Below, in pieces: positions 47,662-61,022 of a DNA stretch of 64,000 nucleotides; position 1 is the first letter of the stretch; every line of letters starts with the position of its first letter. This stretch comes from Methanobrevibacter olleyae. Lineage in GTDB: Archaea > Methanobacteriota > Methanobacteria > Methanobacteriales > Methanobacteriaceae. The stretch is from the NCBI GenBank assembly GCA_015063035.1, contig SUTG01000001.1:1-64000 (forward strand). The letters are read 5' to 3'. The translations under genes were made by a program, and so were the position numbers. The notes below the pieces were generated by a model, which ran no database searches, was not told the origin of the DNA, and saw nothing but the letters and a program-made list of their open reading frames with translations.

Positions 47662-48999
47662 TTATTTTATTTTTTTCTTCTCTAACAATATCTCCTTATT
47701 CAAAAAGAAGCAAGTTTTAGTTGTATCCTTATTAAAGAAAGTATTATAAGCATCATCACTTTTCTGACCTTTAGGCCCTATTTCCAATATTTGATTTTCA
47801 AATGAATTTGGATAAGGAAGCAAACTCACATCCTCTTTTTCAATAGCTTCCTTCACCATATTATAAGCCATTTCCATAGAATCCAAATTATCATCATTGA
47901 AGCTAATCCTATGGACTCCTTCCAATATCCTTTGCCCGTTTTTAGATCCACTTCTAGGCTCTTTCCATAGAATATTCAATATGGTTGTTTCATCGAAGAA
48001 GAGCTTCCAATAGGAATCTTCCCAAGTGTCTTCAAATTCACTTAAAGTAAGATTTCTAAAGGACATTCTTTCTCTGTAAGTACCTTTAGGAGTAATTGGA
48101 GAATTTTTAATAATAAAACTTGTTTTCTTGAATAAATCGTCTTTTTCTCCAAGTTCATCATCTTTTCCAATGATTTTATCAGTTATCATTTTATTGAGAT
48201 TCTTTGGTATTTTTTCCTTGTATGTTTGTCCAGTTATTTCCTCTAAAATCTCAAGTTGGCTTTTTCCAATATACGGCCGTAATTTAGCTAAAACATACTC
48301 TTCAACAGTTTTAAATTCATTTGTATCAAAGCTGATGGTTGTTCCTATACTGTTTAGGATACCGCTCATGTATGAATTTTTAAGTGAATATGCTCTTGGC
48401 TTTGCAGGTATAGTAGAGTTAGGTTGAGTTGTTCTGTCTTTAGATGTTCTAGCTTTAGTGCAAGCCCCAAGGTATGATGTATCACTTTCAGACAATTCAT
48501 GAGCACGGCCATCTTTTACCTTTTGTTTTATGATGTAAAAGTCATTTTTAATTGTTTCTTCATCTTGGCCCATATCATATAATTGGTAATCGGTAATTAG
48601 GAAATCTCCAATATCCTTTCCTTTTTCATAGAAATACCAAATGAATAGGATTTTTTTATTTTTATAGATTAATTTGCTGTATTCATATTCTTCATTGACT
48701 ATTTTATTGAAGTCAATTCTACTTAGGGAAACTCTTTCTTTAGCTGATTTTTCACCTTTTTTGTTCTTTTTATAACCTGTTACTTTCAATTCAACTCCTA
48801 TTTTATCAAAATCAGCTCTAGGGTCAGTGTTTATAGGATATTTATAGAAACCGGTTTCTACAACTTGGCCTAAGACACCTTTATTTCCTTTTAGATTTGT
48901 GGTGTTTTCAAGTAGGTGTTCTGAATCTATTTCCTTAAATGTTCTACCTTTAATCGCTTCTGTGTAGTGAAGCAATTCCTCAATTGTGTTGAATTTCAT
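47662..48999 (-). CDS. Type II restriction endonuclease, Sau3AI/MutH family
   Basis: A 445-residue endonuclease of the MutH/Sau3AI group, which cuts at GATC. The MutH-type core is KGNKGVLGQVVE followed by D63-x6-E70-L-K72 in ADFDKIGVELKVTGY. A second, catalytically silent MutH-like half (from about residue 215) gives the two-domain length usual for Sau3AI (about 490). The divergent C5-methylase next door completes a restriction-modification pair. GATC specificity is inferred from family. Confidence 0.88.
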   Translation of the reverse strand: MKFNTIEELLHYTEAIKGRTFKEIDSEHLLENTTNLKGNKGVLGQVVETGFYKYPINTDPRADFDKIGVELKVTGYKKNKKGEKSAKERVSLSRIDFNKIVNEEYEYSKLIYKNKKILFIWYFYEKGKDIGDFLITDYQLYDMGQDEETIKNDFYIIKQKVKDGRAHELSESDTSYLGACTKARTSKDRTTQPNSTIPAKPRAYSLKNSYMSGILNSIGTTISFDTNEFKTVEEYVLAKLRPYIGKSQLEILEEITGQTYKEKIPKNLNKMITDKIIGKDDELGEKDDLFKKTSFIIKNSPITPKGTYRERMSFRNLTLSEFEDTWEDSYWKLFFDETTILNILWKEPRSGSKNGQRILEGVHRISFNDDNLDSMEMAYNMVKEAIEKEDVSLLPYPNSFENQILEIGPKGQKSDDAYNTFFNKDTTKTCFFLNKEILLEKKKIK

Positions 49000-49146: not shown

Positions 49147-50439
49147 ATGGATAAAACAGTAGTAGAATTATTTGCAGGTGTTGGTGGATTCCGTTGTGGA
49201 TTCAATCATGTAAGCCTAAAGGATGGAAAAGTCCACGAAGAGGATAATTGGGACTTTGTTTGGGCTAATCAATGGGAACCTTCCACTAAATCACAAGCTG
49301 CATTTGATTGTTATGTTGAAAGATTCGGCGAATCTGAAAATCATGTAAATGAGGATATTGCTACTGTGGATAAGTCTACTATTCCTAATCACACTCTTCT
49401 TGTTGGAGGATTTCCTTGCCAGGATTATTCAGTTGCTAGATCTCTTTCTGGGGGTAAGGGTATTGAAGGGAAAAAAGGAGTGCTTTGGTGGCAAATAGCG
49501 GAAGTTTTAGAGGAAAAACAACCTCCATTTGTTCTTCTTGAAAATGTGGATAGGTTATTACGTTCACCAGCTACTCAAAGAGGTCGCGATTTCGGTGTAA
49601 TGCTTAGAACTCTTCTTGATAATGGCTATTCTGTTGAGTGGAGAGTAATTAATGCAGCAGAATACGGTTTCCCACAAAAGAGAAGAAGAGTATTTATTTT
49701 TGCTTATCATGAGTCTACTAATTATTATAAAAAGATGGATAAGGTAGATTATGAGAATTTAATTTATAAAGAAGGAATTTTTGCAAAGAATTTCCCAATT
49801 CAATATTATACCGATAAGAATTTGGATGGAAAAGAAGTTTCCATTGATGAATTTGGAGAAACTTCAATCAAAAAGAAAGATTATGATGATCTTGTAGCTA
49901 TTAGTGATGATTTTGAATTCCATTTCTTTAATTCTGGTCTTATGCATAAAGGAAATATTTACACCTTTAAGACTTCTCCAGTTGAATGTGATGATGTAAC
50001 CACTTTGGGAGACATTATGGAAAAAGGAGAAGTTGATGAGAAATATATTCTTAAAGGAGAAAGGTTAGAAAAAATGAAATATCTCAAAGGCTCTAAAAAA
50101 TTGCAAAGAAAGAAACCTAATGGTGAATTATATAATTATTCTGAAGGAGCTATTGCTTGTCCTGATTATTTAGATAGGCCTGCTAGAACAATGCTTACAA
50201 GTGAAAGTAGTATTAATAGAAGCACTCATATGATTAAAGATGCTAAATCTGGAGAATTTAGGCTTATCACACCAATCGAAGCTGAAAGAATTCAAATGTT
50301 CCCAGATGATTGGACAAATATTGAAAATAAATCCATGACAGAAAAACGCAGGTACTTTATGATGGGAAATGCACTTGTTGTAGGTGTTGTAGAGCGTTTA
50401 GGAGATTATATATCAACTATTATTGCTAATGAAGATTAA
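49147..50439 (+). CDS. C5-cytosine DNA methyltransferase (M.Sau3AI-like)
   Basis: A 430-residue cytosine-5 methylase. Motif I ELFAGVGGFRCG, motif IV GGFPCQDYS with nucleophile C91, motif VI LLENVDRLL (E132), motif VIII QKRRRVFIF and motifs IX/X (MLTSESSINRS, GNALVVGVVERL) are all present. Beside a Sau3AI nuclease, it most likely protects GATC by methylating C. A GAGGAATTTTT leader gives the start. Confidence 0.92.
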   Translation: MDKTVVELFAGVGGFRCGFNHVSLKDGKVHEEDNWDFVWANQWEPSTKSQAAFDCYVERFGESENHVNEDIATVDKSTIPNHTLLVGGFPCQDYSVARSLSGGKGIEGKKGVLWWQIAEVLEEKQPPFVLLENVDRLLRSPATQRGRDFGVMLRTLLDNGYSVEWRVINAAEYGFPQKRRRVFIFAYHESTNYYKKMDKVDYENLIYKEGIFAKNFPIQYYTDKNLDGKEVSIDEFGETSIKKKDYDDLVAISDDFEFHFFNSGLMHKGNIYTFKTSPVECDDVTTLGDIMEKGEVDEKYILKGERLEKMKYLKGSKKLQRKKPNGELYNYSEGAIACPDYLDRPARTMLTSESSINRSTHMIKDAKSGEFRLITPIEAERIQMFPDDWTNIENKSMTEKRRYFMMGNALVVGVVERLGDYISTIIANED

Positions 50440-50480
50440 ATTTATATTTTTAAAAATTTATATTATAATCTGTGATTACT

Positions 50481-51218
50481 ATGGTGAAGGGGGAAAGAAC
50501 AAAATTAACTACTTTAGATGATTACTTTAGTAATCAATCTAAAAAAGAAAAACCTATTTTTGATGAAGAAGATGAATATTTTAGCTTAGAAGAAATATTT
50601 TCTGATGAGGAAGACGATGAAGAACTCATAAAAGAAAGTGAATCTATAGATTTAAAAAAATATTCGGATTATGTAAATATTTTATTCAATGCTAAAATGG
50701 ATAAATGGATGTTAGAGCTTTTTAACAAGAAAAAATTAATTGTTACTAGATATTTTAAAAAGAAAGAAGATGCAGAAAATCAAGCTCTCAGATACTTAAA
50801 AGAATTGGATGTATTAGATAGAATCTATGAGAAAAAAAATTTTGTAGAGGAACCAATTCGTTCAAGGCATAAAGGAATTTTCTTTAGTCAAAATAAAGGT
50901 AAATGGGGAGCTAGAGTAAAAGGTTATAAAGGATCTAGATTACTGGGATATTTTAATACTGAAGAGGAGGCATACTTAGCTAAACGAAAATATCTAAACG
51001 ATAAAGAAAAATCTATAGAAGAGTTTATACATCAAAAAAGAGGTTTAAAACATAAACCTAAATTAGATACTTCTGGTGAAGGAATTCATTTTAGTAAACA
51101 ATCTGGGCTGTGGATTGTCAGTTTAAAAGATAATAATGGAAAATATGTTAATTTAGGTAAATTTAAGTCTGAAGAAGAAGCTATTAAGGCAAAAAACGAT
51201 TTTTTAAATAATTTATAA
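50481..51218 (+). CDS. Protein with three AP2-like DNA-binding repeats
   Basis: A 245-residue protein. After a charged N-terminus come three related modules at about residues 65-110, 131-172 and 200-242, each a three-strand-plus-helix unit: WMLELFNKKKLIVTRYFKKKE, KGIFFSQNKGKWGARVKGYKG and EGIHFSKQSGLWIVSLKDNNG, each followed by a helix of EEEAYLAKRKYL type. This is the AP2/ERF-like fold. The ATG at 50481 follows GTGAT. It sits between the two methylases, so it may be a regulator (controller protein) of the restriction locus or a specificity partner (inference). Confidence 0.65.
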   Translation: MVKGERTKLTTLDDYFSNQSKKEKPIFDEEDEYFSLEEIFSDEEDDEELIKESESIDLKKYSDYVNILFNAKMDKWMLELFNKKKLIVTRYFKKKEDAENQALRYLKELDVLDRIYEKKNFVEEPIRSRHKGIFFSQNKGKWGARVKGYKGSRLLGYFNTEEEAYLAKRKYLNDKEKSIEEFIHQKRGLKHKPKLDTSGEGIHFSKQSGLWIVSLKDNNGKYVNLGKFKSEEEAIKAKNDFLNNL

Positions 51219-51284: not shown

Positions 51285-52223
51285 ATGCAAGTATCTCTTT
51301 TTCCAAATGAACCAATAGACCCTAAGCCATTTTTGAAATGGGCAGGAGGCAAAACACAATTGCTTGAAACTATTGAAAATCATTTACCTAGTGAAATCAA
51401 GGAATCTAAAGAGATAGATAAATATTTTGAACCTTTTGTTGGTGGTGGAGCAGTATTTTTTTATTTATCCACTAATTATAACATTAAAGAAGCTTATTTG
51501 TCTGATATAAACAAGGAACTTATTTTAACATATAATGTAATAAAAAATTATCCTAAGAAATTATCTCATAGATTAAAATATTATTATGATTATTATATTT
51601 CAAAATCTGAAGAAGAAAGGAAAGAATATTATTATAAAATCAGAAATGATTTTAATAAAGAGTTAATTGATTTTGATTATAAAAGAGGATCTTATAATCA
51701 TGTTAGAAGAGCTTCTAAGTTTATTTTTTTAAATAAAACTTGTTTTAATGGTTTGTATAGAGTAAATAGTAAAGGAGAATTTAATGTTCCAGCAGGAAGA
51801 TATAAAAATCCTTTAATTAATGATAAAGAAAATATTTTAAATGTTTCTAAAGCTCTAAAAAACGTTACTATTGTTAATGCTAATTACTTAGATTCTGAAG
51901 ATTTAATAGATGAAAACTCTTTAGTTTATTTAGATCCTCCTTATAGGCCTTTAACTAATGCGAGCAGTTTTGAAGGATATTCTAAGTCAGATTTTAATGA
52001 TGATAGTCAAATAGAGCTGTCTAATTTTTATAAAAGAATTTCAAATAAAGGTGCTAAAGCTTTACTAAGTAATTCTGATCCAAAAAATGTCGACCCTAAT
52101 GATAACTTTTTCGATGATTTATATTCAGATTTTAATATTTATAGAGTTTCTGCAAAGCGTTATATTAATTCAAAAGGGGATAAAAGAGGAGAAATCAATG
52201 AAATATTAGTTTCTAACTTTTAA
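51285..52223 (+). CDS. Dam-type N6-adenine DNA methyltransferase
   Basis: A 312-residue class D12 adenine methylase. FLKWAGGKTQLL (residues 16-27), FEPFVGGGAVFFYL, the Dam/DpnM signature NKTCFNGLYRVNSKGEFNVP (about 150-169) and the catalytic D217-P-P-Y220 are intact. The signature segment is that of GATC-specific Dam and DpnM enzymes, so the same GATC site may carry both 5mC and 6mA here. Confidence 0.9.
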   Translation: MQVSLFPNEPIDPKPFLKWAGGKTQLLETIENHLPSEIKESKEIDKYFEPFVGGGAVFFYLSTNYNIKEAYLSDINKELILTYNVIKNYPKKLSHRLKYYYDYYISKSEEERKEYYYKIRNDFNKELIDFDYKRGSYNHVRRASKFIFLNKTCFNGLYRVNSKGEFNVPAGRYKNPLINDKENILNVSKALKNVTIVNANYLDSEDLIDENSLVYLDPPYRPLTNASSFEGYSKSDFNDDSQIELSNFYKRISNKGAKALLSNSDPKNVDPNDNFFDDLYSDFNIYRVSAKRYINSKGDKRGEINEILVSNF

Positions 52224-52290: not shown

Positions 52291-54030
52291 ATGTCTAAGT
52301 CTTCAAATTCACCACAATCTGATCAGGAAACATCCATATTTACACTAGTCAAAGTCGGAAAATCATATAAAAGTAAAGGTTGGGCATTGCCTAGAAGGGA
52401 TATTTCAAAAATTATTCCAGTTGAAAAATATGAAGGAAATTGCCATATTGAAATTGATGGGATAGTTGCACCAGCAATATTTAGGGTTAATCCACGTTTG
52501 TTTTATAGAAGCAATGTTCTTTCAAAACATTTGGAAAAGTTGAATAAATCCGAACCAAATTCTAAAGTAGCTTTAGAAATTAAACTTAATGAAAAGCAAT
52601 CATATTCTAATTTTATTTCTAAATATCTAACTTCAGAACCTATTGAATTTTTAAATACAGATTTACCTGTTGGCCTATCTTATAAAAGTAAAGGATGGAG
52701 AATAAATAAGGATGTTACCTCTAGATTTATTCCTTTAAATGAATATTCTGGTGTTTATGATATTGTTGTTGATCATATTTCATCATCAGCTATTTTAGAT
52801 GTTCAAACCAGAATTTTTTATAAAAGTGATAAATTGAGCAATCATTTAAAAGAATTGCATGATTCTAATCCAAAGCAGAGGGTAAATGCAAAAATTATTT
52901 TTGATGAAGACTTGGTTTTGTTTGATTTGAAAACTGATGTGAGTGAAGACATCAATAATAATAAACAGACAGTTTTACTTAATAATTCGAAAGAAAAGGT
53001 TAAAAGTAAAGGGGATGAAAATATTAAAACTAAAAATGATGATAATTGTTCTTTTTGTGGAAATAAATTACCAAAAAGATTAAACAAAAATCTAAAAGAA
53101 TTATCTAATGAATATCCTAATGCTTGTAAAACATGTTTGGAAAAAATTTATTCCTTAGGCATGTTTTATAAATTTCAGGAAAAAACTCTTGTCAAATCAA
53201 TCAATAAAGAACATATGAAAAACAAATTAGACCTTGATGATTTTGATTATACTTGGGACTTGTTATTAAAATATGAAATGATTGAGCCTTTAGCAAGCAA
53301 TTTTAGATTATGTGGAAATTTTGAAATTGAACAAGAGTTTAAAAATTTATTCGAAGAAGGGGAGAAATCTCCTGAATTAGGATATAATCCTGATGTAATT
53401 GCAATGGGCAAAGAAAATGGAACTAAAATTAAAAAATGTCGCAAATGTGGAAAAGAATTAACAGAAGATGAAGATGAAAAGTGTAATGATTGCATTCAAA
53501 AGGAATTAGTTTATGATTATATTATGCAATTATTACCTTTATTTTCCCATGTTGCAAGAATTTCTAAAAAAGATTTACTGGATGATGAGTACCCTGAACA
53601 TAAGAAAAACATTATTTTTTCAAAATTGGTTGAATATGGTATTGTTAAACACAATTCGGGAGATATCTATAGTTTGAATTTTGAATCTTTAGTTGAATTA
53701 ATAAAAAAATATGGTACTAAAAAAGATTATTATATCTTTGATTCTTTAAACAATGATTTAAATATTCTTTTTGCTCCTCATTTTGTAACAAATAATGAAG
53801 AAAATTTAGATTTATACTTTAATTGGGACGATTTCAAAGATTATGTTGTTTTTAGGAAATCCTTAAATTTAGTACGTGTTACTTTGAAAGACAATAAAAA
53901 ATTTGTTTCTTCCGAAAGCTTTAGTAATATATTTTTAGCAAAGTTACTAGTAGTAAAACATTTGAATAATTTAAATGTAATTAACATACTTTCTGAGAAA
54001 GATACTAAAAAATTTGGTCTTTCTCAATAA
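52291..54030 (+). CDS. Two-repeat, two-zinc-ribbon protein of unknown function
   Basis: A 579-residue protein I do not recognise. Residues about 20-107 and 125-212 are two copies of one domain, each opening with YKSKGW and containing RLFYRSNVLSKHL or RIFYKSDKLSNHL. After a polar linker there are two zinc ribbons: CSFCGNKLP...CKTC (about 252-282) and CRKCGKELT...CNDC (about 384-402), each followed by a helical, winged-helix-like stretch. The C-terminal 60 residues resemble one of the AP2-like modules of the protein at 50481-51218 (LVRVTLKDNKKFVSSESF, then LAKLLVVKHLNNL). The build suggests a DNA-binding or target-recognition protein for the surrounding defence genes (inference). Confidence 0.6.
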   Translation: MSKSSNSPQSDQETSIFTLVKVGKSYKSKGWALPRRDISKIIPVEKYEGNCHIEIDGIVAPAIFRVNPRLFYRSNVLSKHLEKLNKSEPNSKVALEIKLNEKQSYSNFISKYLTSEPIEFLNTDLPVGLSYKSKGWRINKDVTSRFIPLNEYSGVYDIVVDHISSSAILDVQTRIFYKSDKLSNHLKELHDSNPKQRVNAKIIFDEDLVLFDLKTDVSEDINNNKQTVLLNNSKEKVKSKGDENIKTKNDDNCSFCGNKLPKRLNKNLKELSNEYPNACKTCLEKIYSLGMFYKFQEKTLVKSINKEHMKNKLDLDDFDYTWDLLLKYEMIEPLASNFRLCGNFEIEQEFKNLFEEGEKSPELGYNPDVIAMGKENGTKIKKCRKCGKELTEDEDEKCNDCIQKELVYDYIMQLLPLFSHVARISKKDLLDDEYPEHKKNIIFSKLVEYGIVKHNSGDIYSLNFESLVELIKKYGTKKDYYIFDSLNNDLNILFAPHFVTNNEENLDLYFNWDDFKDYVVFRKSLNLVRVTLKDNKKFVSSESFSNIFLAKLLVVKHLNNLNVINILSEKDTKKFGLSQ

Positions 54031-54163
54031 AATTTTTATTTTCTTTTTTTCACCTTTTTTTAATAAAATTTATAAATATTTAAATACTTTTTAGTAAATA
54101 ATATTAATATATAACTATTATTTTGATCTTATTTTTAATTTTGATAGGGTAGGGGGTGTTTTT

Positions 54164-56206
54164 TTGTTAATGGATGTAAATATAAAGTTTAAATATGATT
54201 CTGATCAAGATGATTTAGTTAACGATTTTTATATTCCTGTTTTATCTCATTCTGAAGAATATCTCAGAATGTCTGGCTTTTTTTCATCTTCTTCTTTAGC
54301 TATTTCTGCTCAAGGTATTGCAGATTTTATTAGAAATAATGGAAAAATGAAACTTTTATGTAGTTCCATACTTCCAGAAGATGACATTGAAATTATTGAA
54401 GAATATCATAAAAACCCTGAAAAATTTATAGAAACCTCTTTTATCAATGATATAGATAATTTAGAGGATATTTTTATAAAAAATCATGTGGAAGCTTTAG
54501 GATGGATGCTTGCTAATGATTTATTAGAAATTAAAATAGCAATTCCTATTGATAGGAAAGGAATATTTCATTCTAAAATTGGTATTTTGAGGGATGAAGA
54601 TGATAATCTTATTTCATTCAGTGGGTCCGATAATGAAACTGCTTCTGGTTGGGTAAATAATATTGAAGAATTCAAAGTTTTTCGTTCTTGGGATGAAAGT
54701 GAAAAAAAATTTGTAGAATCAGATTATGATGATTTCTATAAATATTGGAATGGAAACACTCTTAAAACGGATATAATTGATTTACCTATTGCAATTAAGA
54801 AAAAATTAATTCAATTAGCCCCTCCTTCTAAAGATGATTTAGCTATTTTAGATAAGAATGAAATCATTCCAGGTATTAAATTAAGAAAATATCAAAACAA
54901 TGCTATCGATTCTTGGTTTGAAAACGATTGTTGTGGAATTTTTGAAATGGCAACAGGGACAGGAAAAACATATACGGCCTTATCTTGTTTTAAAAAGCTT
55001 CTTGACTCTAAAGATAAATTGTTTACTGTTATTGCATGCCCTCAATCTCATTTAGTAGACCAATGGGCTAAAGATTTAAAAAAGTTTTACAATGGAGAAA
55101 TTTTGATAGTGCCAGGTAAGAATTCCGACTGGCAATCTAAATTAAGGAGAGCATTGAAAAATTTATTCATGGGAATAACTGATAAAGTCGTTGTTATGAC
55201 AACACATAAGTCTTTATCTTCTGATAAGTTTATTTCTGTAATAAAAAAATTTAACCTTGATTCTCTATTAATAGTTGATGAAGTTCATGGTATTGGATCT
55301 GAAAAACAGCAATTAGCTCTTATTGAGAATTACAACTATCGTTTAGGCTTAAGTGCAACACCTAAGAGATGGTTTGATGATGAAGGAACACAATTATTAT
55401 ATGATTATTTCGGAGGAGTTGTTTTTTCATTCGATATTGAAAGAGCATTAAGAGAAATTAACCCCGACACAGGAAAAACTTATTTAACTCCTTATATTTA
55501 TAAACCTATCATTGTTGACCTGAATGATGAAGAATATGAGCAATATTACGAATATAGTTTGAAAATTGCCCAATCTTTCGGATCTAATAAAAAAGAAGAT
55601 CTTGATAGAGTAAGTTTATATTCTAATTTAAGACAAAGAATAGTAAATAATGCAGAAGCTAAATATGATGCATTGAATACTATTTTGGATGATTTCAAAT
55701 CCAAGAATGAAAGTGAGATGGATAAATTAATTGTATTCTGTTCTGATAAGCAAATAGATAAAGTTCAAAAAATTTTAATAGAAAATAAAATAGTCCCTCA
55801 GACTAGGTTTACTAGTCATAAAAGAGCTAGTAAAAAAAAGGGGGAAAAATATAGTGAAAGAGAAATTATTTTGAAAAATTTCTCTGATGGTGTTTATAAA
55901 GCTTTAGTTGCTATTAAATGCTTAGATGAGGGTGTAGATGTTCCTTCAGCTGAAAATGCTATTATTATGTCTAGCACTTCAAATCCTAGAGAACATGTTC
56001 AAAGAAGAGGGCGTATTTTAAGAAATTCTCCAGGAAAAGAAATAGCTGTCATTTACGATATTTTAGTATTTCCTGAAGAAAACACAGATGCGGGTAAAAA
56101 AATTTTAAGAAAAGAAATTGACAGATATAAAGAATTTGCAACTAATGCAAGTAATTCTCATGAATGTTTAAAATTATTAAGAGAATATTATTATATGGTG
56201 GTTTAA
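54164..56206 (+). CDS. PLD-nuclease/SSL2-type helicase fusion
   Basis: A 680-residue protein. The N-terminus is a phospholipase-D-type nuclease domain: H136-S-K138 followed by SGSDNETASGW. Residues about 235-640 are a superfamily-2 (COG1061/SSL2) helicase with ATGTGKT (263-269), VDEVHG (371-376), LSATPKR and motif VI QRRGRILR. The TTG at 54164 fits the GGGGGTG ribosome site better than the ATG 6 bp on. It is the first gene of a four-gene overlapping operon. Confidence 0.85.
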   Translation: MLMDVNIKFKYDSDQDDLVNDFYIPVLSHSEEYLRMSGFFSSSSLAISAQGIADFIRNNGKMKLLCSSILPEDDIEIIEEYHKNPEKFIETSFINDIDNLEDIFIKNHVEALGWMLANDLLEIKIAIPIDRKGIFHSKIGILRDEDDNLISFSGSDNETASGWVNNIEEFKVFRSWDESEKKFVESDYDDFYKYWNGNTLKTDIIDLPIAIKKKLIQLAPPSKDDLAILDKNEIIPGIKLRKYQNNAIDSWFENDCCGIFEMATGTGKTYTALSCFKKLLDSKDKLFTVIACPQSHLVDQWAKDLKKFYNGEILIVPGKNSDWQSKLRRALKNLFMGITDKVVVMTTHKSLSSDKFISVIKKFNLDSLLIVDEVHGIGSEKQQLALIENYNYRLGLSATPKRWFDDEGTQLLYDYFGGVVFSFDIERALREINPDTGKTYLTPYIYKPIIVDLNDEEYEQYYEYSLKIAQSFGSNKKEDLDRVSLYSNLRQRIVNNAEAKYDALNTILDDFKSKNESEMDKLIVFCSDKQIDKVQKILIENKIVPQTRFTSHKRASKKKGEKYSEREIILKNFSDGVYKALVAIKCLDEGVDVPSAENAIIMSSTSNPREHVQRRGRILRNSPGKEIAVIYDILVFPEENTDAGKKILRKEIDRYKEFATNASNSHECLKLLREYYYMVV

Positions 56207-56397
56207 TGGCTAAAAAATCAAAGGCAAAAAATAGAATAAATACAAAAATCTTAGATTTTATTGATGAAAGTGACTTTGATTCTAATACTAAAAGTTTTTT
56301 ATATAGTTGTTTAGAAATGGAGTTTCTTAGAGATAAAAAAGGTTCAAGAAATTATTTTAAGGACTATGATAAAATTGTAGATAAGTATGTGGAGTGA
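56206..56397 (+). CDS. Small basic protein between helicase and DndD-like ATPase
   Basis: A 63-residue, helical protein (MAKKSKAKNRINTKILDF..., ESDFDSNTKSFLYSCLEMEFL). Its ATG overlaps the helicase stop codon by one base (TAATG), so it is translationally coupled. No family recognised. Conservation of such a gene in this exact slot would show that it is a subunit. Confidence 0.7.
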   Translation: MAKKSKAKNRINTKILDFIDESDFDSNTKSFLYSCLEMEFLRDKKGSRNYFKDYDKIVDKYVE

Positions 56398-56401
56398 TTT
56401 T

Positions 56402-58399
56402 ATGATATTAGATAAAGTTTCAATAAAAAACTATCGTCAGTATAGAGATGTTGAAATAGATTTTGCTAAAAAATCTAATCAAAATTTCACTATTATTAAA
56501 GGTAATAATGGGACTGGTAAAACCACTTTACTTAATGCATTAACTTGGTGTTTATATGGTACTGAGATTCATTCCTATGGTCAATATACAGCTATGAGTC
56601 AATGTAATAATAAATCTGCAAATCTTGCAGAAGATGGGGACGAAATTGAAGTCAGTGTAAGAATTGATTTTTTAGATGAGGATGAAAAAGCCGTATCTTT
56701 TGAAAGAAAAAAAGTTTTTTATAAAAATAATGGTGAATTAAGAGAAAGTCCAGCTGGGAAAAGTTTTACAGTTACTAAGCAAGTCGGTAATGATTTTAAT
56801 ATTTATCCTGATGATCAATATACTGTTCAAAGAATGATTCCTAAAAAAGTTGAGGAATATTTTTTCTTTGATGGGGCACGTTTAGGAGAATATTTCCAAC
56901 ATAATAGTAAACAGAATATTAGAGATTCTGTTTTTCAACTTTCACAATTAAATTTAGTCGAAAGTGTTAGTAAGAATCTAGGAAAAGTTATTGAACAATA
57001 TACTCACAATCAAAAGAAAATTGCACCAGCAATTGGCAGTATAAATGAAAAAATAAATCAAGCTAAAGAAACAATTGAAAACTATGAAAATAAAATAGAG
57101 GAATCTAATAGAATTATTGATGATGCTGAATTAGAGATTAAAGATATTGAGCAGAAATTACTCAATATGGATTCTGGAGCTGTTAAAAAAGCGGTTAAAA
57201 GAGATATTGAACTAAAAGAGAATATAAAGAAATTAGAAAAAAAATTAAATGGTACAGATGGATATGGAGGTTTAGTAGCTAAACGAAGAAAATTGATTCT
57301 TGAAAATTATCCTTATCTATTGTCTTTTAATTCATTTAAAAAATTTTTAGAGCTTGGTGAAGACTCTAGACAAAAAGGTTACATACCTTCAAAATATAAA
57401 AGAAGCTTTTTACAAGATATGTTAGATGAAGGAATCTGTATATGCGGAGCTGATTTATCAACAGATACTAAGCATAGGAAAGCAATAGAACTTCTATTAA
57501 AAGAAACAGATCCTTTAACTGACGAGTCAGAAAAAGTTACTAGTGAATTAACTCATGTACAAGAAGTAATTTTAAGAAGAGTTTCTAAATTTAAAGAAAA
57601 AGATATTGAAATAAATAGTCAAATATATGAAACTTCTGAAGAGTTGGAGGAAGCACGTGCAGAAAGATTAAGAATTAAGGGGATTTTAGAAAACACTTCT
57701 ATAGAAGATATCAAAGTTTTAGATTCTATAAAAAATGATTTAGAAGCGGAAATTAGAAAACAAAATAGAAATATTGGTACATATAAGGCCGAAATTAGAA
57801 TGGCTCAGGATAAGAAAGTTGATTATGAACAATTGAGACGTAAACAAGATAGTGATTCTGAAAAATCTAGAATACTCAGTGAAAAAATTGAATTTTGTGA
57901 AAATGCTGATGAGGCTTCCAAATATGTTTATAAAACTTTAACAAAGAATATGCAAAATGAAATACAAAATTTAACAAAAGATAAATTCATTAAAATTCAA
58001 TGGAAAGAAGATGAATTTGTTGATATTAAATTGGATAGCAATTATGAATTATCTATAATAAACAAAACCGGGGACATTGAAAAACCAGGAGACTTATCAG
58101 ACGGTGAAAAATTATGTTTAGGGTTATGTTTCATGTCAGCATTACATAGGATTTCTGGGTTTGATTTACCTATTGTTATGGATACTCCATTAGGTAATTT
58201 AGATGTAGATATGAGGCAGAATATTGCTAAATTTTTACCTCAATTTGTTGAAGGAAAACAAATTATTTTATTAGTAACTGGTACTGAATACACTAGTGAT
58301 TTTAGAGATATTCTTTATGATAATATTGGTAAAGAATATACAATTAACTGGGATAATTCTGAAAATGGAAAAGAATCTAAGGTGGTTTTAAATGGCTAA
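56402..58399 (+). CDS. DndD-like SMC-type ATPase
   Basis: A 665-residue ATPase. The N-terminus VSIKNYRQYRDVEIDF and Walker A KGNNGTGKTTLLNALTWCLYG match the DndD family of DNA phosphorothioation systems, as does EEYFFFDGARLGEY. A long coiled coil (about 210-560) has a hinge with ICICGADLST, a C-x-C variant of the zinc hook. The C-terminus holds the signature LSDGEKLCLGL and Walker B LPIVMDTPLGNLD. The ATG at 56402 is 5 bp after the stop of the small gene, and the end overlaps the next gene by 8 bp. No DndA/B/C genes are near. Confidence 0.85.
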   Translation: MILDKVSIKNYRQYRDVEIDFAKKSNQNFTIIKGNNGTGKTTLLNALTWCLYGTEIHSYGQYTAMSQCNNKSANLAEDGDEIEVSVRIDFLDEDEKAVSFERKKVFYKNNGELRESPAGKSFTVTKQVGNDFNIYPDDQYTVQRMIPKKVEEYFFFDGARLGEYFQHNSKQNIRDSVFQLSQLNLVESVSKNLGKVIEQYTHNQKKIAPAIGSINEKINQAKETIENYENKIEESNRIIDDAELEIKDIEQKLLNMDSGAVKKAVKRDIELKENIKKLEKKLNGTDGYGGLVAKRRKLILENYPYLLSFNSFKKFLELGEDSRQKGYIPSKYKRSFLQDMLDEGICICGADLSTDTKHRKAIELLLKETDPLTDESEKVTSELTHVQEVILRRVSKFKEKDIEINSQIYETSEELEEARAERLRIKGILENTSIEDIKVLDSIKNDLEAEIRKQNRNIGTYKAEIRMAQDKKVDYEQLRRKQDSDSEKSRILSEKIEFCENADEASKYVYKTLTKNMQNEIQNLTKDKFIKIQWKEDEFVDIKLDSNYELSIINKTGDIEKPGDLSDGEKLCLGLCFMSALHRISGFDLPIVMDTPLGNLDVDMRQNIAKFLPQFVEGKQIILLVTGTEYTSDFRDILYDNIGKEYTINWDNSENGKESKVVLNG

Positions 58400-58838
58400 A
58401 GAAAAATCAGGTCCGGAAGGTAGAAGGCTTCATTTTGATAATGATGATGCAAAAATTTATGAAAATTTAATTAAGAATCATGGACCGTTTAAAGGTTTAA
58501 ATTATATTGATATATTTTCTATTGCTGTTGCATATGGAAAAAAAGCAGGTTTTAGGACAGAATTAAAACCAGAAGGTAAATCTATAGGTCGTGTTGTAGA
58601 ATCTGTAATTGATAATTCAGAACTTAGATATTTGATGAAAGCTATTGCAGTTGAAGAAGAAGATTCTTTAGGTGTAATTTTAGATTTAGATAAGTATTTT
58701 ACTATTTCTGAAGAATATGCAAAAACAGGATTAGAACTTTTAGAACAAGAGTTTATTGCAAATGAGGAAATTTTAGAGGATATGGAATTAGAAATGATTC
58801 AGTTCTATAATGATTATATAGAGGGTTCTGAAGAATAA
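58392..58838 (+). CDS. Protein resembling DNA phosphorothioation-associated protein 4
   Basis: A 148-residue acidic helical protein. The order GPFKGLNYIDIFSIAVAYGKKAGFR, then a mid helix, then ISEEYAKTGLELL resembles the dnd_assoc_4 (TIGR04062-type) family found beside phosphorothioation-dependent defence genes; I give this from memory of the family pattern. The ATG lies 8 bp inside the DndD-like gene, so it completes the overlapping operon. Confidence 0.6.
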   Translation: MAKEKSGPEGRRLHFDNDDAKIYENLIKNHGPFKGLNYIDIFSIAVAYGKKAGFRTELKPEGKSIGRVVESVIDNSELRYLMKAIAVEEEDSLGVILDLDKYFTISEEYAKTGLELLEQEFIANEEILEDMELEMIQFYNDYIEGSEE

Positions 58839-58887
58839 TCCTTCATATCTTTTAATTTTTTCTTTTTTTATTTTTTTCTAAAGTTAC

Positions 58888-59135
58888 TATCTAATATCTA
58901 TAATATATCTATTAAATATCTATCACTTATCTATCAATTTTATATTTAATATCTATTAATTTTCTATTAGATTTCTATTAATTATCTATCTAATACCTAT
59001 CTAATATCTATAATATATCTATTAAATATCTATCACTTATCTATCAATTTTATATTTAATATCTATTAATTTTCTATTAGATTTCTATTAATTATCTATC
59101 TAATACCTATCTAATATCTATCATATATCTATCAA
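58888..59135. repeat. 110-bp tandem repeat, about 2.3 copies
   Basis: CTAATATCTATAATATATCT recurs at 58891 and 59001, and partly at 59111, an exact 110-bp period. Each unit is itself built of TATCTAT(C/T)-like 10-12-bp words. It begins 50 bp after the defence operon ends. Confidence 0.9.
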
Positions 59136-59208
59136 AATTATTCTATAAATTACAAACTAATTTTAAAGCCCTCAAATAGCTTATTTTCTATGCAAGTAAG
59201 TGCTTACA

Positions 59209-60095: not shown

Positions 60096-61022
60096 ATGTT
60101 AATAAGCCAGCATGAGGACAAGTCCTTTAAGATATTGATTGATTTTGCAATGCATGATTTTCTAAAGGGAATTGGAATTGAGGAGGAGATAATAGTTCCG
60201 CTTCCTACAGAGCTCATGGCCACCAATTGCATGAATCGAAGATTGGATTACTGTGGCCTATCAAGAAATTATGAAATAATCAATGTTGAATTCCAATCAA
60301 CTGTCTTAAGCGAAGAGGATGAGATTAGAATCTTTGATTATGCATCCTCCTTATTTGTAAAGTTCAAGCTTCCAGTAAAAACCTTTATTATAAGTACAGT
60401 TGAAGATAAAAGTCTAAAACAAGAAAAATGGCATCATAATGACGTGTTTACTATTTATATCATATCGTTAAAGGATAGGGACGGATTGAAAGCTTTAAAT
60501 AGTATAAAATCAAAAATAAGGAATAAAGAAACCTTTAATGGTGAAGATATTGTTTCATTGATTTCAATTGTTTTTATGAAATCAGATTTCACTGAGAAAG
60601 AACTGCTGTTTAAGGTTGGAGATTTGACTAATAAGGCAAGATTCGAATCTGACTTTGTTAAAGATCAAGTAAAGTCAATTTTATTGATTTTAGGGAATAA
60701 ATTCATAAAGGATAAAGACGAATTAGAAAATTTTGGAGAGATTATGATGGGTTCAAGTTATTTGTCATCTGTATTGCCAGGGACATTCGAGATTATTAAG
60801 GAAAAAGCTAAGGAAGAATTTTTAGAAAAGGGACTTAAACAAGGTGAATTAATAGGTCTGGATAAAGGAGTGGAATTAGGTAGAAAACAAGGACAGGAAG
60901 AGGGAATTGTTTCAGTAGTTATAAGGATGTTGGAAAGGGATAGGTCTATGGAAGATATTTCAGAAGTTACTGGATTGTCAATAGTAAAAATAAGTTATTT
61001 AAAGGAAAAAATAATGGAATAA
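60096..61022 (+). CDS. Rpn-family / PD-(D/E)XK nuclease-like protein
   Basis: A 308-residue relative of the protein at 25498-26370. The core shows D51 in RRLDYCGL and VEFQSTV with E65 and Q67, where the usual lysine of E-x-K is replaced by glutamine, a common variant in this family. EDEIRIFDYASSLF and ISTVEDKSLKQEKWHHND match the relative's order; the end has the charged KGVELGRKQGQEEG repeat typical of Rpn proteins. Confidence 0.75.
   Translation: MLISQHEDKSFKILIDFAMHDFLKGIGIEEEIIVPLPTELMATNCMNRRLDYCGLSRNYEIINVEFQSTVLSEEDEIRIFDYASSLFVKFKLPVKTFIISTVEDKSLKQEKWHHNDVFTIYIISLKDRDGLKALNSIKSKIRNKETFNGEDIVSLISIVFMKSDFTEKELLFKVGDLTNKARFESDFVKDQVKSILLILGNKFIKDKDELENFGEIMMGSSYLSSVLPGTFEIIKEKAKEEFLEKGLKQGELIGLDKGVELGRKQGQEEGIVSVVIRMLERDRSMEDISEVTGLSIVKISYLKEKIME

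Follow-up and report, generated by a model that had tools for sequence, protein, structure and literature searches.

In this study, we found that the genes at 54164-58838 of the window (the whole stretch of 64,000 nucleotides of Methanobrevibacter olleyae DNA that was analyzed) form, with near certainty, a PbeABCD cassette. We lean slightly toward the view that a Dam-type adenine methylase has taken the place of the phosphorothioate (PT) partner of this cassette. The best reading of our data is that Pbe would be a modular restriction-like arm whose self-mark has been exchanged, the mark here being m6A, probably at GATC. The window is part of contig C32 in a 2.28-Mb genome that is 95.6% complete, and the genes of the locus and of its 5' side are the following:

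47662-48999, minus strand: Sau3AI-family restriction endonuclease (NF040973, 338 bits, exceeding the cut-off of 300)
49147-50439, plus strand: C5-cytosine methyltransferase of a Sau3AI-type restriction-modification pair (TIGR00675, 240 bits)
50472-51218, plus strand: AP2-like DNA-binding protein (PF00847, 23.9 bits, below the cut-off; cluster AP2k)
51285-52223, plus strand: Dam-type N6-adenine DNA methyltransferase (TIGR00571, 291 bits; DPPY and KWAGGK motifs)
52291-54030, plus strand: KGW protein, 579 aa, with two KGW domains of about 83 aa and zinc ribbons
54031-54163, plus strand: gap of 133 nt 5' of pbeA, AT-rich, with a TATA-like TTTATAAATA and a ribosome-binding-site-like GGGGG
54164-56206, plus strand: pbeA, PLD (HKD) nuclease domain fused to an SF2 helicase, 680 aa
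56206-56397, plus strand: pbeB, 63 aa, with the position and size of PbeB in relatives
56402-58399, plus strand: pbeC, coiled-coil ABC ATPase with a CxC zinc-hook motif (CICG), sister clade of DndD, 665 aa
58392-58838, plus strand: pbeD, DndE-like / dnd-associated protein 4, 148 aa

All four open reading frames of the gene set named by the original prediction were found on the plus strand. Among the overlaps that it described, the one base shared by pbeA and pbeB (TAATG) and the 8 bp shared by pbeC and pbeD are present, whereas pbeB and pbeC are separated by a 4-nt gap. The start of pbeA is a TTG at 54164, with an ATG at 54170 as an alternative start, and it is possible that the gap in front of it holds a promoter proper to pbeA. 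For PbeB, no match was obtained to any family model in NCBIfam, Pfam or the PADLOC profiles. An AT-rich tandem repeat (58887-59136; period 110, 2.3 copies, 98% match, inner period of 11 bp) was also observed 3' of pbeD.

The claim that no named system matches this gene set proved wrong, as the PADLOC profiles recover both PbeA (PDLC02707, 782 bits, residues 2-668 of the 672 in the profile) and PbeC (PDLC02711, 655 bits) at full length and in the gene order of PbeABCD (PMC6459918). Comparison with archaeal PbeABCD loci gave the same order A-B-C-D, which recurs in dozens of species, far beyond chance. In NCBIfam, the pbeA product matched TIGR04095 (dnd restriction enzyme domain) with 417 bits, the pbeC product TIGR03185 (DndD) with 191 bits for a cut-off of 246, and the pbeD product, which can be aligned with 14 other PbeD proteins, TIGR04062 with 39 bits for a cut-off of 74. 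As all three scores lie under the curated cut-offs, these proteins are relatives of the Dnd proteins and not standard members. The first gene had been read as a PLD nuclease joined to a helicase, and this holds: the HKD residues are present and the SF2 helicase part matches ResIII with 83 bits in Pfam, the Pfam PLD match being weak (E = 0.013). The third product had been called an SMC ATPase. It is instead a Rad50-like ABC ATPase and no true SMC, its CxC hook placing it in the Rad50-like CxC-ATPase clade (PMC10853773), and no Lamassu or Wadjet SMC protein is among its 25 best PADLOC matches, which are all PbeC or DndD.

The DndCDEA-PbeABCD system of Haloterrigena jeotgali A29 comprises the same four Pbe proteins, in the same order and of like sizes, with a PbeB of 66 aa and a PbeD of 152 aa against 63 and 148 aa here (PMC6459918). 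Our locus differs from it in that no DndC was found in the assembly, and by the presence of Dam and the KGW protein 5' of the cassette in the stead of dndCDEA. According to Xiong 2019 (PMC6459918), each of the four pbe genes had a part in defence, which virus with PT modification escaped; also, 320 of 553 PbeAC pairs had no DndCD nearby, 155 of these 320 being near methyltransferases, and it was left open whether such solitary cassettes are inactive or rely on a different mark. PbeABCD was later reinterpreted as a CxC-ATPase/DndE system (Rakesh 2024, PMC10853773). The systems anchored on a CxC ABC-ATPase and DndE have in common with ours an HKD-SF2 helicase, a small protein, the CxC ATPase and, probably, a DndE cognate, and some versions are linked to methylases, but those named are cytosine C5 or N4 methylases and MTaX1, whereas an N6-adenine Dam is found here. 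With Dnd/Dpt (DndBCDE-DndFGH), the likeness is limited to PbeC and PbeD, whose sister families are DndD and DndE: no DndC was found in the host genome, and DndB, DndF, DndG and DndH gave no match among the scanned proteins of the region.

That dndA, dndB, dndC and dndE are missing from the neighbourhood was borne out, and the absence of the sulfur-transferase extends to the whole assembly. A search of the rest of the genome gave 0 DndC matches in the host assembly (95.6% complete), in which no SspD-like protein was found either. Its PAPS-reductase/PP-loop matches were weak, and the two that were examined look TtcA/Ncs6-like and ThiI-like, that is, of the tRNA-thiolation type. Among 139 Methanobacteriaceae genomes, a PbeC homologue was present in 37 and DndC in 1, and DndC was found on no apparently archaeal contig. 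The single DndC (G004:C319, L077) was not accepted as native, since a Bacteroidota-type glycosidase gene is present on the same contig. A contig with PAPS-reductase, desulfurase and Pbe (G049:C132, L075) was taken as likely bacterial on account of a bacterial sigma-factor-like gene. Both contigs are probably bacterial contamination, their origin being judged from translated neighbour genes and not from a database assignment. Since these sole DndC and PAPS-reductase contigs look like contamination, it appears that the Pbe of Methanobacteriaceae occurs without phosphorothioation genes. About 14 DndC-linked Pbe loci were found in other lineages by the same survey, which was thus able to detect such loci. 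Of the two explanations first proposed for the locus, a restriction arm split from its modification arm is therefore a poor fit, as neither DndC nor an SspD-like protein was found in the assembly and none of the apparently archaeal contigs of Methanobacteriaceae gave a DndC match. The sensing of another signal is the better-supported one: Dam lies two genes 5', and Dam or a B12 radical-SAM protein (see below) occurs in 34 of the 37 PbeC-carrying genomes.

In the window, the gene order is Dam, KGW protein, then pbeA. The Dam belongs to the family found in DpnII-type restriction-modification systems and is 57-66% identical to Dams that are paired with DpnII in this archaeal family, but the DpnII nuclease is missing (none between 44 and 64 kb in the window) and PbeABCD is in its place. 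Away from Pbe, DpnII (PF04556) adjoins Dam at 17 of the 19 loci inspected, with one intervening gene in two, against 0 of the 12 Pbe-linked Dam loci, where Dam is at most 5 kb from pbeC (p = 6e-7). The DPPY motif is kept in 11 of these 12 Dams, the exception (L068) coming from a locus that also has a radical-SAM protein. Pbe-linked Dams are not one clade, and Dam-linked PbeC is found in at least three separate groups of the family (the window with L040; L050/L053/L054; L066-L074 with L073). Further Dam-linked PbeC are encountered in Saccharibacteria, where DpnII is retained.

Several points weigh on the pairing of Dam with Pbe. At the genome level, the association is weak: of the 43 genomes with Dam, 18 have PbeC (p = 0.007). 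Another contig of the host (G000:C47:2124-3935, L118) encodes a second Dam, accompanied by DpnII; if this enzyme is GATC-specific, GATC would already be methylated without the window Dam, which counts against the pairing. A single transcript is not assured, given the KGW gene and the 133-nt gap between Dam and pbeA, and the neighbours may be coincidental as the window lies in a run of defence genes. Also, a few loci have neither partner, such as those of G007, where PbeA also lacks the PLD part, and G020, which is fragmented. Overall, we judge it fairly probable that the window Dam is paired with Pbe as the maker of its self-mark. By analogy with the Dam/DpnII family, its specificity is probably GATC. 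In the whole window, GATC is 2.2-fold under-represented (104 observed, 226 expected), a stronger depletion than that of any other palindrome in the comparison; this suggests a long exposure to GATC-specific enzymes, but does not point to Pbe in particular.

The neighbourhoods of about 38 Pbe loci were clustered for recurrent partners, and these turned out to be Dam-type methylases, KGW-domain proteins and a B12-binding/radical-SAM protein of about 425 aa (PF02310 and PF04055). The latter was detected in 25 of the 139 family genomes, 24 of which are PbeC-positive (p = 1.5e-16). By coordinate comparison, 25 of its 27 copies lie at most 11 kb from pbeC, the other two being located at the ends of contigs. 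Members of this family are also found 3' of pbeD in loci of Nanoarchaeota, Clostridia, Chloroflexota, Actinobacteria and Stahlbacteria. Examples, which have no specific family name, are L046:6948-8309, L134:8502-9758 and L166:12386-13639, and the protein is a candidate DNA-modifying enzyme. A second, weakly related radical-SAM-like type with a CFRKCxFC-type motif stands 5' of pbeA in gut Firmicutes, Bacteroidales and Collinsella, either as a separate gene with a partner of about 230 aa or as a fused protein of 627-711 aa (L157:5898-7686, L164:5776-7667, L153:5823-7703, L187:5621-7732). Pfam radical-SAM matches for this type are weak (25 bits in L187, none in several), the group being defined mainly by the motif and a profile match. 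Since Dam and the radical-SAM protein share the same slot, both would be DNA-marking enzymes, a view that comes from position and not from chemistry. In the literature that we searched, there was neither a link between radical-SAM proteins and Pbe nor a radical-SAM DNA mark serving host defence, and such partners are unmentioned for CxC/DndE systems in PMC10853773. We tentatively propose that PbeABCD may be a general restriction arm, pairable with phosphorothioate, with N6-methyladenine as in the window, and with one or two undescribed modifications made by radical-SAM enzymes, one of them B12-binding.

On a PbeC tree of 97 rows, partner type requires 25 changes, compared with a mean of 57.5 for shuffled labels (0/200). 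Thus, partner type tracks the PbeC phylogeny, which argues against a Pbe that reads no mark at all. Such a system would sense an infection-specific DNA structure or an invader activity and act directly or by abortive infection, Dam being an independent orphan or antirestriction methylase. The Rad50-like nature of the PbeC ATPase would suit it, as would the suicide models given for PbeB/PbeA in PMC10853773, the few loci without a partner and the abundance of other defence genes in the window. Further points against it are the near restriction of the B12 radical-SAM protein to genomes with Pbe, the lack of DpnII beside Pbe-linked Dams and the need of the characterised Pbe for PT genes (PMC6459918), and we regard it as rather unlikely.

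It seems to us improbable that the window Dam is incidental and that the mark is made by another enzyme, whether the adjacent C5 methylase from the Sau3AI pair or the host's second Dam. Sau3AI pairs do adjoin Pbe or its radical-SAM partner in 7 of about 16 copies, PbeC is present in 11 of 17 Sau3AI genomes (p = 5e-4), and cytosine methylases have been reported near CxC systems (PMC10853773). Nevertheless, this C5 methylase already has a divergent nuclease of its own next to it, and at the majority of Pbe loci Dam or a radical-SAM protein occurs without Sau3AI. The Sau3AI-type pair of the window is probably a system separate from Pbe. The host has a second Sau3AI-family gene on another contig (G000:C42:4115-5473).

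Catalytic residues are strongly conserved in the cassette. In PbeA, the HKD residues H136, K138, D144 and G154-S155-x-N157 are invariant in 87 of 87 aligned proteins, and the Walker, DExH and motif VI residues show little or no variation in the same alignment. All PbeC proteins aligned have the CxC motif (96 of 96), with C346 and C348 invariant in an alignment of 15 proteins. Relative to the nearest relative (57-66% protein identity), codon positions 1 and 2 vary less than position 3, and intact pbe reading frames are found in more than 30 species. The invariant motifs and the third-position changes make decay of the cassette unlikely. For some solitary Pbe, Xiong 2019 suggested that they are non-functional leftovers of PT systems whose DndCDEA genes have been lost. 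Such a remnant would agree here with the lack of DndC in the genome and with the PT dependence of known Pbe activity (PMC6459918), but is highly improbable in view of this conservation, of the selection visible at codon positions and of the presence of Pbe in over a quarter of the family genomes, with DndC on no apparently archaeal contig.

KGW relatives occur at many Pbe loci, and the domain is also found in McrB-like proteins of relatives (MrcB_N and AAA_5). Proteins with this domain include L106:8481-10244, L107:9267-11423 and L042:12213-15176; a KGW-PLD fusion suspected in L042 was unsupported. An AlphaFold2 model of the single domain reached a pLDDT of 94, with no PDB match, while the full-length model was poor (pLDDT 61). 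McrBC systems restrict modified DNA. The occurrence of the domain in McrB-like proteins thus makes a DNA- or mark-reading role plausible, and we propose by analogy that the KGW protein may be a DNA reader or accessory. A homologue of the AP2-like protein is encoded 5' of pbeA in Methanosphaera (L046).

Other possible defence genes were observed around Pbe. Between 38886 and 47651, the window contains possible capP/RmrA, PDC-S70 and PDC-S15 genes (weak-to-moderate matches), an OLD-like TOPRIM protein of 609 aa and a 536-aa protein, and at 60096-61022 what may be a recombination-promoting nuclease of the Rpn family (13 bits, below the cut-off). The PbeA without a PLD part (L042:7476-8810, G007:C3) is a helicase-only protein of 445 aa, with one McrBC-like and one Sau3AI pair next to it. 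In 12 loci of L050-L071 (e.g., L069:7058-10388), a NUDIX protein and a PLD-helicase-DUF3427 protein of about 980 aa stand 3' of Pbe.

In the preferred reading, in which Pbe works with an exchanged self-mark, Dam would mark host DNA with N6-methyladenine, probably at GATC. The CxC-ATPase PbeC and the DndE-like PbeD would then scan the DNA and respond to unmarked sites, perhaps with the KGW protein as a reader. PbeA would move by its SF2 motor, its HKD domain cutting or blocking DNA, and PbeB would be a required small adaptor or regulator. In relatives, radical-SAM proteins would do the marking in place of Dam. The invariant HKD motif supports, but does not prove, DNA cutting (the view of PMC10853773) over an action without cleavage (the interpretation of PMC6459918), and so bears on the published dispute as to whether Pbe cuts DNA.

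The PbeABCD cassette, its occurrence without Dnd genes and its methyltransferase neighbours were already published (PMC6459918), as were links to cytosine methylases (PMC10853773). The new features reported here are the Dam without DpnII at Pbe loci, the B12 radical-SAM protein and the second radical-SAM type, and the tracking of PbeC phylogeny by partner type. By comparative evidence, Methanobacteriaceae answer the question whether solitary cassettes are dead, as theirs have stayed intact although DndC was found on no contig that appears archaeal. They also supply candidates for the mark, namely a Dam that has exchanged DpnII for Pbe, and radical-SAM proteins that hardly occur away from Pbe loci. 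With these partners known, the mark read by Pbe becomes testable. If the radical-SAM proteins do mark DNA, gut methanogens and gut bacteria would possess a class of DNA modification that has so far gone unrecognised.
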